IMG/VR virus record: IMGVR_UViG_3300007345_000340
Span: 1 to 21,540 of that record
Strand: one strand, 5' to 3'
From: a virus
DNA length: 21,540 nucleotides
The first letter of the stretch is position 1; every line of letters begins with the position of its first letter. A model generated the notes under the pieces. It ran no database searches. It saw only the letters and a list, made by a program, of their open reading frames with translations, and was not told the DNA's origin. Positions 10,551-19,996 of this stretch are shown one piece after another. Position numbers and translations under genes: made by a program.

Positions 10551-10896
10551 ACACTACCTCCAATTTTGGGAGTTTTACTTCTCCGCTATGTTCTCTGTAT
10601 TCCATTGCTAATGCTTTTCTTTCGTCATTAGTTGCAAGTAGCTTGTATAAAGCTAGGAGACTAGCCGGTGATTTACTCTGATGCAGTTTTGATCGAATCG
10701 ATACTTTTGTTCGCATAGCATTTTTGTTAAGTTTTTCTTTTATGGCCTTCGATTTCTCCGAATCAGGAGGAAAATGCTCATAAAATGTACTCTCTGCTAT
10801 ACCTAGATAAGCTACCACATCAGAAACAAAAAAAAGGTTATTTTTATCAATGTCCTCTATGGCTCTCTCGTATAATTCGCTAGTCTTGTACGCCAT
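10492..10896 (-). CDS. terS: Terminase small subunit (putative)
   Basis: 134 residues directly upstream of and overlapping terL. Residues 1-45 hold a helix-turn-helix-like segment (FFVSDVVAYLGIAESTFYEH), as expected for DNA recognition. A central helical region follows (AMRTKVSIRSKLHQSKSPAS, LLALYKLLATNDERKALAMEY). The tail is Lys/Pro-rich (GSSKPPKK) and may contact TerL. GGAG lies six bases before the ATG, inside the end of the methyltransferase gene. The call rests on the HTH plus helical domain layout and on position. No sequence hallmark fixes the family. The packaging site was not identified. Confidence 0.75.
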   Translation of the reverse strand: MAYKTSELYERAIEDIDKNNLFFVSDVVAYLGIAESTFYEHFPPDSEKSKAIKEKLNKNAMRTKVSIRSKLHQSKSPASLLALYKLLATNDERKALAMEYREHSGEVKLPKLEVVYGNVQDGDESKGSSKPPKK

Positions 10897-12085
10897 ACGG
10901 TTCTCCGTTTATTTTTATCTCCAATGTATCATCTAGCTTTCTCATTCGGTCTATTATAACTTGGCAATACTTCGGGTCTAACTCCATACCGTAGCATTTA
11001 CGTTTAAGTTGGTGTGATGCTACCATTGTTGAGCCTCCACCTAAGAAACTATCATATATTAAGTCATTAGACTTACTACTATTTTTTAATGCTCTTTCTA
11101 CTACATCAATAGGTTTTTGTGTTAAATGAAAATTATTTTGCTTGTCTTTTGGGAATTCCCATACTGTTTTTTCGTTTGTTGCTCCATACCAGTTAATGCT
11201 TTTTCCTTTTTTAAATCCGTATATACAAGGCTCATAGTTAGGTATGTATTGACTCATAAATGCTCCTGACCCACTTTTAACTTTATACCAACAAATTACC
11301 GCTCTAACTTCAATGGGTGTTTTTGACAAACCTGCATAAGTCTCTTTAGACTTTCCACCTGCATACCATATATAAAAAGGAGAAGTGTCTTTTGAAAAAA
11401 TACAAGCATTATTTATAGCATCCTCAAATAGACTAGACAATTTATCATCTTGAAACTCATCGCTTTCAATACCTTCTCTTTGTTTTTTATTATGGCCTCC
11501 AGTATAACTAACTCCATAAGGCGGGTCGGTAAATACCATATCCGCTTTCTCCCCGTTCATCAAACTTGCAACAGCATCGCTATCAGTGGAATCCCCACAA
11601 AGTAACCTATGCTCTCCTATCTCGATTAAATCTCCAAGCACTACATCGACCTTTATATCTTCGGGTTCTTCGTAGTTATCCTCCTCTGCCTCTAGCTCCT
11701 CCGCTTCAATATCCCCAAATAATTCCTCATCGCTGAATCCCCAATCGGTCAATTCCTCAACCTCGAAGTAATTGGCTAGGGCATCATAATCCCATCCACC
11801 AGTATTTTTATTGAGTCGGATGTTTAACTCTCTCTCCTTCTCTTTGTCGAGTTCTAACTCCACGCAGGGGAATGTTTCCCATCCTAATCGTTGCGCCGTT
11901 TTGAGCCTTTGATGGCCTCCAATGATGATGTTCTTTCTATCCGGATGTGTGTTTATAATAGCCGGATCTACTGCGCCGAATCTTCTAAGTGAGGCCTCAA
12001 GATGAGTTGCTTGTTCGTTTGTGAGGTGTCTAGGATTGTACTCGGCCGGGATTAAATCTTTTATCTGCCTATCTACAATCTTCAT
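10880..12085 (-). CDS. ParB-like nuclease domain fused to beta-class DNA methyltransferase
   Basis: 401 residues. Residues 1-95 are a ParB N-terminal domain: IKDLIPAEYNPRHLTNEQ, ASLRRFGAVDPAIIN, and the GGHQR motif at 56-60. An acidic linker (about 118-145) follows. The methyltransferase has motif IV DPPY at 187-190 ahead of the SAM-binding DSFLGGGST at 345-353, the order of beta-class N6/N4 enzymes. DPPY favours adenine N6. This fusion is common beside phage terminases and is thought to protect or mark phage DNA. The target sequence is unknown. No restriction partner is present. The middle (about 11040-11460) is visibly more AT-rich than the flanks. It shares one base with the upstream gene (TAATG). 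Confidence 0.92.
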   Translation of the reverse strand: MKIVDRQIKDLIPAEYNPRHLTNEQATHLEASLRRFGAVDPAIINTHPDRKNIIIGGHQRLKTAQRLGWETFPCVELELDKEKERELNIRLNKNTGGWDYDALANYFEVEELTDWGFSDEELFGDIEAEELEAEEDNYEEPEDIKVDVVLGDLIEIGEHRLLCGDSTDSDAVASLMNGEKADMVFTDPPYGVSYTGGHNKKQREGIESDEFQDDKLSSLFEDAINNACIFSKDTSPFYIWYAGGKSKETYAGLSKTPIEVRAVICWYKVKSGSGAFMSQYIPNYEPCIYGFKKGKSINWYGATNEKTVWEFPKDKQNNFHLTQKPIDVVERALKNSSKSNDLIYDSFLGGGSTMVASHQLKRKCYGMELDPKYCQVIIDRMRKLDDTLEIKINGEPYGVQD

Positions 12086-14830: not shown

Positions 14831-14871
14831 AGGTTAGGGTAAGCTAAGGGTAAGGTTACTCTAGGCTAGGG
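14831..14871. repeat. Helically phased GGGTAAG / AGGTTA repeats
   Basis: GGGTAAG occurs at 14837-14843 and 14848-14854 (11-bp period), AGGTTA at 14831-14836 and 14853-14858 (22 bp), and G-triplets recur at 14837, 14848 and 14869. Part of this lies in the last codons of the gene ending at 14856. Iteron-like or a binding array. Confidence 0.4.
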
Positions 14872-15434
14872 CTAAACCTACGCTCATACTCTGAATCTAA
14901 CCTATTAAAGTAAGAATCGGCTTTAGTACCGGAGAAAAGAACGCCCTTACCTAGATTATCTCTTCCTAAGTTTGTAACGATGGTATGCAGGTTGATTATC
15001 TCATCATCGGATAAGTTCTCTAACCTTGTACCTTTCTTCTCAGGTAGCTCTTGAGGCTTGTTGTATTTTATCCAGGCTCGGGATATATCGTCAACTGCTT
15101 TCCTCATAGCCTCTGCAAAGGAGGCAATATTGTTCCCACTACGATCATACTGCGCCGACATAAGGTTATTACTAAACTCTACAAAGATAAACCCAATAGG
15201 TATATCGAGATGTAGCTTGTTATTTCTGATAATTACGTGATTGAGCCATTGATTAAAATACTCGGCTCTCAGCGCCGTTTGTTGTTTCTTATCCCTATGC
15301 TCGGGTAATTGCTTTGTAGCTCCTAGAAACTCATGTAATTGATATACGCTAGTAAGTAAATCCTTATCTGCCTGGAAGTTTGTATATGCTGACTGGAGAA
15401 GCTCCCTCCTGGTCATTTGATCCGTGTATTTCAT
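14856..15434 (-). CDS. Hypothetical protein paired with the O-like initiator
   Basis: About 192 residues if started at the ATG at 15434 (MKYTDQMTRRELLQSAYTNF). An ATG at 15416 is equally possible, and the frame stays open to an ATG at 15485. Even the short forms overlap the initiator gene by 50-70 bases. The protein is mixed alpha/beta with LHEFLGATKQLPEHRDKKQQ, then FNQWLNHVIIRNNKLHLDIP, a hydrophobic IGFIFVEFSNNLMSAQYD, and helical ASFAEAMRKAVDDISRAW. No Walker motif. In lambda the gene after O is the helicase loader P. By position this could be a loader or primosome partner, but sequence gives no support. Confidence 0.72.
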   Translation of the reverse strand: MKYTDQMTRRELLQSAYTNFQADKDLLTSVYQLHEFLGATKQLPEHRDKKQQTALRAEYFNQWLNHVIIRNNKLHLDIPIGFIFVEFSNNLMSAQYDRSGNNIASFAEAMRKAVDDISRAWIKYNKPQELPEKKGTRLENLSDDEIINLHTIVTNLGRDNLGKGVLFSGTKADSYFNRLDSEYERRFSPSLE

Positions 15435-16146
15435 TGAGTTGCTCAAGCTCGGTAAGCTCGTTGTAGAAGTCGTTAGATGTTTCATTTATATCCTTTGGTT
15501 TATAGTTGTTCCAATCTTCCTTCCACATTTCAGAGTTCAAGAAGGTAAGAGGATTTTTTTGATATTTCTTTTCCGGTTCATAAGCCTGGTATATAGGAAT
15601 AAATTCTAATATAAGACTCTTGTTTTTCTTTGAGAGATTACCCCAGTTAGTTTCGCATCTCTTGCGATCAATCTTTTTATCATAAGAATCCCAAAACAAA
15701 TCGAACATATATAACTTCTTATCATTATTTACATTCTTATCATTCTTTTCATTCTTAGTAGTTGTTGCTTGTATGTTGCTCGTTTGTTGCTCGTCTGTTA
15801 CTCGTTTGTTGCTCTGTGTGTTACTTTCTGAGTCCTCACTCTGATAAGTGTTGTAGTTGCAAACAGTTACAACCGTTCCTTGTCTGTTGCTATGTCTGTT
15901 GATTTCTCCGGTCTTTTCTAACTTGCTTAGAGAAGTCCTTATCTGTTGCGTAGAAAGATTAAGCTCAAACGCTAATACTTCTAGGCTTGATACAAAGGTT
16001 GTTCGTTTTATTAATTCACCTCTATACTTCTTGTCTTTATGATTAGCCTTCAAAAGACAATGCAAAAAAAGGCGTAGTGTATTTGGATCATCGTACCATT
16101 CCCATTCTAGAAATTGTCGATGCAGTTTGATCCATCCTTTATTCAT
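15364..16146 (-). CDS. Replication initiator, lambda O-like layout (winged-helix N-terminus)
   Basis: 260 residues. The N-terminal third is a typical phage O/DnaD-like opening: MNKGWIKLHRQFLEWEWYDD, TLRLFLHCLLKANHKDKKYR, then a winged-helix segment with VSSLEVLAFELNLSTQQIRT, SLSKLEKTGEINRHSNRQGT and VVTVCNYNTYQ (about residues 50-106). A low-complexity Asn/Thr/Lys linker (about 107-145) is encoded by the repeat array at 15732-15903. The C-terminal domain (MFDLFWDSYDKKIDRKRCET, LTFLNSEMWKEDWNNYKPK) resembles the loader-binding part of such initiators. GGAG stands eight bases before the ATG. Binding of the embedded iterons by the N-terminal domain is inferred by analogy with lambda O. Confidence 0.82.
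   Translation of the reverse strand: MNKGWIKLHRQFLEWEWYDDPNTLRLFLHCLLKANHKDKKYRGELIKRTTFVSSLEVLAFELNLSTQQIRTSLSKLEKTGEINRHSNRQGTVVTVCNYNTYQSEDSESNTQSNKRVTDEQQTSNIQATTTKNEKNDKNVNNDKKLYMFDLFWDSYDKKIDRKRCETNWGNLSKKNKSLILEFIPIYQAYEPEKKYQKNPLTFLNSEMWKEDWNNYKPKDINETSNDFYNELTELEQLNEIHGSNDQEGASPVSIYKLPGR
15732..15903. repeat. Putative replication origin: iterons plus AT-rich tandem repeats inside the initiator gene
   Basis: Plus-strand GTTGCT/GTTACT motifs begin at 15764, 15775, 15786, 15797, 15808 and 15820. The first five are exactly 11 bp apart, with unit consensus GTTGCTCGTTT. Related motifs follow at 15856, 15866, 15886 and 15898. On the left side, three tandem 9-bp units CATTCTTAT, CATTCTTTT and CATTCTTAG occupy 15732-15758 in an AT-rich stretch, like a DNA-unwinding element. 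An 11-bp period cannot arise from simple codon repetition, so selection acts on the DNA. Layout matches lambda ori inside gene O. Confidence 0.7.
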
Positions 16147-16149
16147 TAT

Positions 16150-16572
16150 TTAATCTCCAAATTGTAAAATCTCATTTTCTAAAATATCCCGATCAAATGC
16201 AAACCATCTTACTACTACATCCAATACTCTATCATAAAGCTCATCGAATCTCTTTTGGCTCATACTGTCAAAAGATATACTCTCGGCTCTGTATTGCTTA
16301 ATTCCTTTGAGATCGGTGTATTCTTTAAAGAACCCTGCCCTCTTAATGAGTTCGTGCCTTAGATCGTCTTGAGTTGGGAAATGTCTATCGAATTGCTCCG
16401 GCATATTATCATATACAACTCTTATCAAAGCAAAGAATTTACGATGATGTTGAACATTCCTTTGATCTAATGCTTTGGCTTGTAGGATATCCCCTATACC
16501 GACTCGGCGCAATTCTAATGCATCCTCATCAGTATAAGGTTTTAATCCCATCGAGGTTTTGACTAATCTCAT
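16150..16572 (-). CDS. DUF1367-like phage protein
   Basis: 140 residues. The pattern MRLVKTSMGLKPYTDEDALE, LRRVGIGDILQAKALDQRNV, QHHRKFFALIRVVYDNMPEQ and the 'hRKFFAL' segment match DUF1367 (NinB/YqaJ-neighbourhood) proteins found in many phage recombination operons. The later half contains LRHELIKRAGFFKEYTDLKG and EDSMSQKRFDELYDRV-like helical text. The biochemical role of the family is unknown, although its location with ERF and an O-like initiator points to DNA replication or recombination. It overlaps the ERF gene by 4 bases and precedes the initiator gene by three bases. Confidence 0.72.
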   Translation of the reverse strand: MRLVKTSMGLKPYTDEDALELRRVGIGDILQAKALDQRNVQHHRKFFALIRVVYDNMPEQFDRHFPTQDDLRHELIKRAGFFKEYTDLKGIKQYRAESISFDSMSQKRFDELYDRVLDVVVRWFAFDRDILENEILQFGD

Positions 16573-17105
16573 TTAGCTATCGATAAGAAGTAATCAAAGT
16601 TCTGTTTATTGACTTTGTACTTTTGTCGTAGCTTACGAGGATCTCCTCCGCTATTAACAAACTCTTCTGCCTTCTCCCATTCGGGCATCCCCTCATTGAG
16701 CCATACTTTGTCATCAGAGGCATCAAATTTAGCCTGAGATGCACGATGTCCGTGTGAGGCTATATTGGCATCATCATCCTCTGCCTCTATTCCTAGAAGA
16801 GACTGAAGAGTATAGCGCCGATAGTAAGTAATACAAGAACCAATCTTTTGAGGATCAGATAAATCCGGCAGAGACAAGAAAGCCTCCACCGAATCACCTG
16901 AGTCAACATCTACAATCCTTGTACCTACTTGGTTGCCTTCTATTGGCTGAAGTAATAGCAAATCTTCCGCTATAAGCGCCGGCCTTACTGCCTCGATTAG
17001 TTGATTGATATCGAAGTACTTTGACTTGAAGAAAGGGTTCTCAGTATCTTTCCGCATCTTATCCATTGTGCTAGTAACTTTAAATAGTTTCTTATAGATA
17101 CTCAT
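16569..17105 (-). CDS. ERF-family single-strand annealing recombinase
   Basis: 178 residues. The ERF hallmark is complete: MSIYKKLFKVTSTMDKMRKD, NPFFKSKYFDINQLIEAVRP (the 'N-P-F-F-K-S-x-Y-x-D' signature at about 23-35), LLLLQPIEGNQVGTRIVD, and the 'G-S-x-x-T-Y-x-R-R-Y' core at SCITYYRRYTLQSLLGIEAE, followed by an acidic DDDAN. It anneals complementary strands during recombination-dependent replication, probably with SSB and NinG encoded on the other arm. GGAGGT lies seven bases before the ATG, and the upstream stop shares a base with it (TAATG). Confidence 0.93.
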   Translation of the reverse strand: MSIYKKLFKVTSTMDKMRKDTENPFFKSKYFDINQLIEAVRPALIAEDLLLLQPIEGNQVGTRIVDVDSGDSVEAFLSLPDLSDPQKIGSCITYYRRYTLQSLLGIEAEDDDANIASHGHRASQAKFDASDDKVWLNEGMPEWEKAEEFVNSGGDPRKLRQKYKVNKQNFDYFLSIAK

Positions 17106-19230: not shown

Positions 19231-19631
19231 CTGATGATATATTTGAGTTCTTTAATGATGATGATCTAAACATTCAAGAACCGCCTCCTAGTATAAAAGC
19301 CGAAATTCAAAAAGAATTTGGGCATAAAAAACTACCGGCCTTGCCTACTCCTTATAAGTTTGGCCCGGTAATAAAAAGAAAGCCAAAAAAAAGAAAACAA
19401 AAGGAACAAAAGGAAAAAGAGCATATTATCAAGTACATTGAAAAGAATGTCATAGAGTATGTAGATAAAACGCCGGATGAGATTTACAAGATAATACATA
19501 AAGTTCAATCAGAACTTATGGATCAAATAACTGAAAACATAAAAGATTGTAGTCCTCAAGATTTAGAGATTTACCTCTCAATGAAGCAGGGAGTGCGAAT
19601 ATTTTACAACAAACTAATAAGCGAAATATGA
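19227..19631 (+). CDS. Hypothetical protein with basic central stretch
   Basis: 134 residues, starting behind AGGAG. The first part is acidic (MTDDIFEFFNDDDLNIQEPP). The middle is very basic (VIKRKPKKRKQKEQKEKEH), and the rest is helical (YIEKNVIEYVDKTPDEIYKI, IHKVQSELMDQITENIKDCS). The basic block could touch DNA or RNA. The layout between a putative wHTH gene and ssb suggests a replication accessory, but no motif supports that. It overlaps both neighbours by 4 bases. Confidence 0.68.
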   Translation: MTDDIFEFFNDDDLNIQEPPPSIKAEIQKEFGHKKLPALPTPYKFGPVIKRKPKKRKQKEQKEKEHIIKYIEKNVIEYVDKTPDEIYKIIHKVQSELMDQITENIKDCSPQDLEIYLSMKQGVRIFYNKLISEI

Positions 19632-19996
19632 ACAAAGCAATACTTATCGGGAATGTAGGAAAGCAACCCGAAATCAGAAAAACACAAACCGGAGTATCAG
19701 TTAGTACTTTTTCTCTAGCTACCTCTAAAAAGATAAAAGGAGAAGATAACACCGAATGGCATAGGATCGTAACTTGGGATAAACTCGCTGAGATAGTCGA
19801 GAAATATGTCAACAAAGGCGATAAGATAATGATCGAAGGAGAGATTCAGACTAGAGAATACGAGAAGGATGGCCGTAAGGTTTACACTACTGAGATACGT
19901 GCCTGGAATATGGAAATGCTTGGAGGAAAATCAGTAGAGCCTCAGAAAGTAGATATGTCAAACCTCGATGACATAGATGACGATTTACCATTTTAA
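19628..19996 (+). CDS. ssb: Single-stranded DNA-binding protein
   Basis: 122 residues. Typical OB-fold opening MNKAILIGNVGKQPEIRKTQ, then VSVSTFSLATSKKIKGEDNT, EWHRIVTWDKLAEIVEKYVN ('W-h-x-I-v-x-W-x-k-l-A-E'), KGDKIMIEGEIQTREYEKDG and TTEIRAWNMEML. It ends in DDIDDDLPF, the acidic tip that recruits partner proteins in bacterial SSBs. The linker is short, so the protein is compact for the family. It is the last gene of the rightward operon. It should coat single strands for ERF-mediated annealing and replication. Confidence 0.95.
   Translation: MNKAILIGNVGKQPEIRKTQTGVSVSTFSLATSKKIKGEDNTEWHRIVTWDKLAEIVEKYVNKGDKIMIEGEIQTREYEKDGRKVYTTEIRAWNMEMLGGKSVEPQKVDMSNLDDIDDDLPF

Follow-up and report, generated by a model that had tools for sequence, protein, structure and literature searches.

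In Salmonella phage L, gene 18 contains six 11-bp repeats (TGTCCAACGGA) that are its likely replication origin, and these have been contrasted with the four ~20-bp repeats in the lambda O gene and P22 gene 18 (PMC8022706). For plasmid pSK41 an in-gene origin has been shown: the winged-helix N-terminal domain of Rep binds Rep boxes located centrally within rep, the linker encoded by the origin is dispensable in trans, and the C-terminal domain can be exchanged (PMC5703833). The N-terminal domains of the PLE RepA proteins covary with their origin (PMC8263062).

The DNA analyzed here (the "window" below is this whole stretch) is a virus record of 21,540 bp that has been classed as a fragment, and in it an initiator-like gene contains an array of 11-bp direct repeats. 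Among described origins, the nearest is the one in Salmonella phage L gene 18, together with its relatives in Sf6 and HK620. The N-terminal domain (N-domain) of the window protein is homologous to those of Salmonella phage L, HK620, HK022 and ST160 (tblastn E values of 1e-6 to 1e-8) and Sf6 (8e-6), and phage L gene 18, Sf6 gene 43 and the O genes of HK620 and HK022 carry direct repeats of 11 bp at the corresponding place within the gene. The rep_origin features in the Sf6, HK620 and phage L records cover these homologous arrays, and those annotations are themselves predictions. The window differs from the phage L group in its unit sequence, its N-domain is 25–29% identical to theirs, and it has a 209-aa gene following the initiator where the phage L group has a DnaB-type helicase gene.

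The initiator-like gene and its surroundings

The initiator-like gene encodes a winged-helix domain (residues 1–102) and a C-terminal part, joined by a linker in whose coding DNA the array lies. The gene, its DNA-binding domain and the gene that follows it are:

15364 to 16146, minus strand: initiator-like gene (open reading frame), 260 aa; residues 1–144 match PHROG 2514, "DnaD-like helicase loader" (3.5e-33)
15841 to 16146, minus strand: winged helix-turn-helix DNA-binding domain, residues 1–102 (AlphaFold2, mean pLDDT 85.5)
14856 to 15485, minus strand: next gene, 209 aa, overlapping the 3' end of the initiator gene; candidate helicase-loading partner

No curated Pfam or NCBIfam model matched the initiator-like protein above its cut-off. 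Upstream of the gene are a NinB/Orf-like gene (16150–16572; PHROG 319, 1.5e-26), an ERF single-strand annealing protein gene (16569–17105; Pfam, 1.9e-19) and one small gene, and an SSB-like gene (19628–19996, identified by eye) and a NinG-like gene lie on the opposite strand; this neighborhood is a phage replication and recombination region. Beside the packaging genes, a 401-aa gene (10880–12085) appears by eye to be a fusion of a ParB-like nuclease domain and a DNA methyltransferase. The initiator-like gene most likely encodes a protein that starts replication and carries, in the DNA that encodes the linker of this protein, the 11-letter repeats to which the protein would bind.

The AlphaFold2 model of the N-domain has helices at residues 55–62 and 66–79 and wing strands at 82–87 and 90–95; residue 67 is the second residue of the recognition helix, and the helix preceding that one begins with residue 55. 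The closest PDB folds found with Foldseek are plasmid Rep N-terminal domains (4pql, 4pt7 and 5kbj), which include a Rep-DNA complex and have E values (1e-3 to 4e-3) of borderline significance; a search of solved structures by sequence gave nothing meaningful. The C-terminal part is exchangeable, since only 12% of the homologue pairs with 60–70% identical N-domains have detectably related C-terminal parts, and this fits a cassette of DNA-binding domain and origin that is joined to different helicase-recruiting tails.

No recognized helicase or helicase loader is encoded in the 21,540 bp of this fragment. The 209-aa protein is predicted to be mostly helical (AlphaFold2, pLDDT 73) and had no family, phage-record or fold match in Pfam, PHROG, NCBIfam and a fold search. 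Relatives that are 28–96% identical to it are encoded directly downstream of the initiator in about 20 of the nearest loci, and its gene occupies the place of the DnaB- or DnaC-like gene of other relatives; with four probes, at least 32 of 229 other loci were seen to have such a gene downstream. It is possible that its product is an unrecognized helicase-loading protein.

The repeat array and the adjoining AT-rich patch

Three features lie within the DNA that encodes the linker and the wing:

15758 to 15824, minus strand: array of six 11-bp units (direct positions, Tandem Repeats Finder and synonymous-shuffle test)
15708 to 15760, minus strand: AT-rich, purine-rich patch (81% AT) with three AAGAATGNN nonamers (15730–15756); candidate unwinding element
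15880 to 15902, minus strand: two extra unit-like copies, 12 bp apart, in wing-coding codons (the matrix made from the array scores them 14.3 and 7.0)

The original prediction had placed six GTTGCT/GTTACT units at positions 15764, 15775, 15786, 15797, 15808 and 15820, and they are found exactly there, with the spacings of 11, 11, 11, 11 and 12 bp that it gave. Because the gene is on the minus strand, the functional unit reads (A)GCAACAAACGA. On the coding strand the five clear units are GTAACACACAG, GCAACAAACGA, GTAACAGACGA, GCAACAAACGA and GCAACATACAA, followed by a degenerate GCAACAACTAC, and the six occupy 15814–15824, 15802–15812, 15791–15801, 15780–15790, 15769–15779 and, for the degenerate last one, 15758–15768. 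The array accounts for the two top Tandem Repeats Finder scores of the whole window (78 for period 11 and 91 for period 22). The lag-11 score of the gene is 36/44, compared with a shuffled mean of 21.8 (z 4.2), and none of 100 synonymous shuffles reached it.

Adjoining the array, the patch at 15708–15760 is 81% AT, compared with 61% for the whole window. The three tandem nonamers claimed for it are present, with CATTCTT at 15732, 15741 and 15750, and its 9/18-bp repeat has Tandem Repeats Finder scores of 56/70; this is weaker evidence than the 11-bp repeat because a period of 9 bp is a codon multiple. When 141 homologues were averaged, AT content and purine content both peaked at about 0.77, 15–45 nt past the array. 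The predicted in-gene iteron array, lying in the linker of an initiator-like gene beside an AT-rich patch, is thus borne out.

Of the four looser copies proposed at 15856–15903, two are convincing (15880–15890, GCAACAGACAA, and 15892–15902, TCAACAGACAT) and the others are weak. Among the homologues, the array's own matrix scores in the top 10% on the gene's own wing region in 53% of loci. Another weak unit-like match, GCAACAGATAA at 15939–15949 in the codons of the recognition helix, is possibly due to chance. GC skew, which had been named as a check, is uninformative on a 21.5-kb fragment: it has no turning point at the array and tracks gene orientation.

Period and place of the array in homologous genes

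Homologues were collected from viral contigs, from one genome per prokaryotic species and from phage records, and the hosts named in these records include Bacteroidota, Bacillota, Alphaproteobacteria, Chlorobiaceae, Campylobacterales and Cloacimonadota; a plasmid search gave 15 weak relatives. A simple lag scan of the first 100 representatives found 11 to be the most frequent best period (58/100) despite widely differing units, and among 260 non-redundant homologues from several phyla the strongest period of the linker is 11 in 181 and 12 in 20. At lag 11, 161 of the 260 beat all 100 of their synonymous shuffles, and in 216 no more than 5% of the shuffles reached the observed value; at a comparable threshold, other non-codon lags gave 25–70 of 260 (10–27%). 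Confident arrays begin a median of 6 codons past the conserved Gln102, their units are spaced by 11 bp in 414 cases and by 12 bp in 60, and the core is on the coding strand in 600 of 604 cases. All three codon phases are used by the unit starts (204/234/180), and these phases together with the synonymous shuffles support the earlier claim that the repeat is selected as DNA and not as protein.

The units themselves vary widely (GCAACAAACGA, AGGGCAAACAA, ACGACCAACAA and ATGTCCAACGG, for example, and AGGGCAAGCAA in Cellulophaga phage phi18:3), and when called without reference to the protein they have the common frame NNNNC[A/C]ANCNA. What is conserved across the homologues is DNA and not peptide. 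The comparison of homologous genes that the original prediction proposed came out as it had envisaged: the sequences of unit and linker drift, and the array keeps its period and its place.

Under the filter used, 119 of the 260 homologues have no confident array, and for some of them this is probably owing to 12-bp or mixed spacing. A 12-bp period is seen at the homologous place in L145 (in which ATAGCAAACAAA is repeated), L132, L135, L139 and L152, which are mostly flavobacterial prophages. No clear 11-bp array was called in five loci from flavobacterial genomes (L140, L142, L144, L148 and L158), whose spacing may be irregular or whose array may have been lost, and L072 and L101 have a 22-bp spaced pattern (ATCGCAA...) instead of an 11-bp array.

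Covariation of initiator residues with repeat bases

Two places in the N-domain are associated with the sequence of the unit:

15910 to 15951, minus strand: recognition helix, residues 66–79; the codon of Gln67 is at 15946–15948
15982 to 15984, minus strand: codon of residue 55 (Leu in the window), the best-associated column for base 6

When about 100 alignment columns were scanned without bias, the strongest association with bases 2, 3 and 4 of the unit was that of column 67 (z of 12.7, 19.8 and 11.9, respectively), and the strongest with base 6 was that of column 55 (z 10.7). In window numbering, bases 3–4 are AA with Gln at residue 67, GG with Lys and GA with Arg or Ser, and residue 55 is Arg in relatives that have C at base 6. 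Glutamine is classically paired with adenine, and arginine or lysine with guanine; Arg55 in company with C at base 6 would mean that the arginine reads the G of the opposite strand.

These rules were derived on the first set of loci and written down before further loci were fetched. The 84 held-out loci share at most 90% identity with the first set and with one another, and their units were placed in register by a template blind to bases 3, 4 and 6, which replaced an earlier one that weighted these bases lightly; a few arrays are out of register under the blind template, so the accuracy figures that follow are lowered by it rather than raised. Base 3 was predicted correctly from residue 67 in 71 of 77 cases, compared with 38 of 77 by majority guess, and bases 3 and 4 were both correct in 58 of 77. 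Arg55 was accompanied by C at base 6 in 19 of 27 held-out loci, and a residue other than Arg by C in 4 of 57; the residue-67 rule is the stronger of the two.

For phylogenetically independent contrasts, a tree was constructed from which the recognition region had been left out. The contrasts gave 23:0 in the predicted direction for Gln versus Lys/Arg at residue 67 (p = 1e-7), 16:0 for Arg55 (p = 1.5e-5) and 9:0 for Lys versus Arg at base 4 (p = 0.002), the remaining pairs being ties or unclear. The core tetramer occurs within codons 66–69 of 18 of the 66 Gln67 loci, and the residue-67 association persists when loci whose codons 66–69 spell the core are removed and holds for several Arg codons (AGA, AGG and CGT). 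The change is clearest in a natural pair: the N-domains of L102, from a Prevotellaceae assembly, and L012, from a viral contig, are 89% identical and have Gln67 and Arg67, respectively, the five units called in each read AACA in L102 and GACA in L012 (base 3 A to G), and the wing copy differs in the same way at base 3. Exceptions to the rule include L139, L150 and L206, some of them of doubtful register, and some register errors remain in the called arrays.

Alternative explanations and proposed mechanism

Could the repeat be a by-product of a low-complexity Gln/Asn/Thr/Lys linker that is selected as protein? The linker is of low complexity, and 33 bp equal 11 codons, so the linker peptide repeats too. 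However, synonymous shuffling destroys the 11-bp signal, the units stand in all three codon phases, and the unit follows a residue of a different domain; the shuffles and the phases rule out the linker peptide as the selected entity, and we give this explanation almost no credence. It is also very unlikely that phylogeny or composition has created the covariation as an artefact, or that it arises from codon 67 lying within a unit-like sequence. The homologues share ancestry, and the Gln67-Gln68 codons (CAACAG in the window) resemble the unit core, and the window has the weak match in the recognition-helix codons, but not one of the independent contrasts was reversed, the pattern survives both removal of the embedded-core loci and the use of different Arg codons, and the GG that accompanies Lys is not spelled by its codons (AAA/AAG). 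Codon 67 inside a unit is ruled out as the source of the signal by the embedded-core removal and the Arg and Lys codon checks.

A different possibility is that the array is an initiator binding site that serves mainly in regulation (autorepression, copy control or shut-off of early replication) and that the origin is elsewhere. Covariation reports co-adaptation of protein and repeat, not origin activity, and the fragment has no skew signal at the array, both of which such a site would accommodate. On the other hand, the array is in the middle of the gene and not at a promoter, a conserved AT-rich, purine-rich patch adjoins it, and its place and layout match those of lambda and of pSK41 rep, for which an origin within the gene was demonstrated (PMC5703833). 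We therefore consider a mainly regulatory site improbable, and the feature is very probably a phage replication origin located within the gene of its own initiator, with iterons that the initiator encoded by the same gene would bind.

Such an origin might work as follows. Monomers of the initiator would physically bind the 11-bp direct repeats, which recur at about every helical turn, through their winged-helix N-domains, so that several bound monomers would line up along one face of the DNA, where residue 67 of the recognition helix would read bases 3–4 and residue 55 the base pair at position 6. Lined up in this way, the initiators could melt the adjoining AT-rich, purine-rich patch. The helicase may be recruited or loaded by the exchangeable C-terminal part, acting with the product of the next gene or with host proteins. 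More broadly, we think it likely that this is a large, phylum-crossing family of phage initiators with a simple code, in which residue 67 sets bases 3–4 and residue 55 sets base 6 of a self-encoded iteron; specificity would change together with a coordinated change of all the iterons in the same gene, the gene would be a self-contained, movable specificity cassette joined to varied helicase-recruiting tails, and groups of compatible origins could be read from sequence.

The in-gene array itself is one more putative in-gene phage origin. In most systems natural variants are scarce, which has made the coordinated change of initiator and origin specificity difficult to investigate, whereas this family offers hundreds in one frame, and two residues predict most of the bases that change. 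For uncultured phages this gives a means of predicting, from sequence, the origins and which of them are likely to be compatible, and it provides a set of binding tests for a stated rule.

Comparison with known systems

The original prediction called the origin lambda-type, a wording that the searches do not support: the window protein does not match PF04492 or TIGR01610, whereas lambda O does in the same searches (6e-36 and 5e-39, respectively), its N-domain is 16% identical to that of lambda O, and its 11-bp units differ from the lambda iterons, which are annotated as 18 bp, and fall outside the lambda O type of iteron, 18–20 bp long and internally symmetrical. The likeness to lambda O and its origin is in layout, with iterons in the middle of the gene and then an AT-rich region (PMC7466680), and the window protein probably works like lambda O while standing outside the lambda O family as its defining models draw it. 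The suggestion that the units are a distinct iteron class holds relative to lambda; the class is not new, since the 11-bp repeats of phage L gene 18 were known (PMC8022706). With the 11-bp in-gene iteron class already on record, the residue/base rule is the part for which we found no published description, the literature searched lying outside most subscription journals.

The same N-domain is present in DnaD-like replisome organizers of staphylococcal, listerial and lactobacillus phages (PHROG 2514 and 186), and 6 of the 7 that were examined have in-gene 11-bp arrays, the other having a 23-bp spacing. The staphylococcal and listerial members have a C-terminal DnaD domain (TIGR01446, PF07261) that is absent from the window protein, in which Pfam and NCBIfam searches found no DnaD/DnaB_2 domain. 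Plasmid pPR9 reportedly has an N-domain like that of a phage replication protein.

The RepA_N plasmid initiators, among them pSK41 Rep and PLE RepA, resemble the window protein in fold at borderline significance, with no sequence or Pfam match between them. The PLE origin is intergenic and has semi-palindromic iterons of ~30 bp, unlike the in-gene 11-bp array described here. The pSK41 rep gene, with four Rep boxes, and the window gene are alike in the place and layout of the array, and pSK41 Rep is the best experimental parallel.
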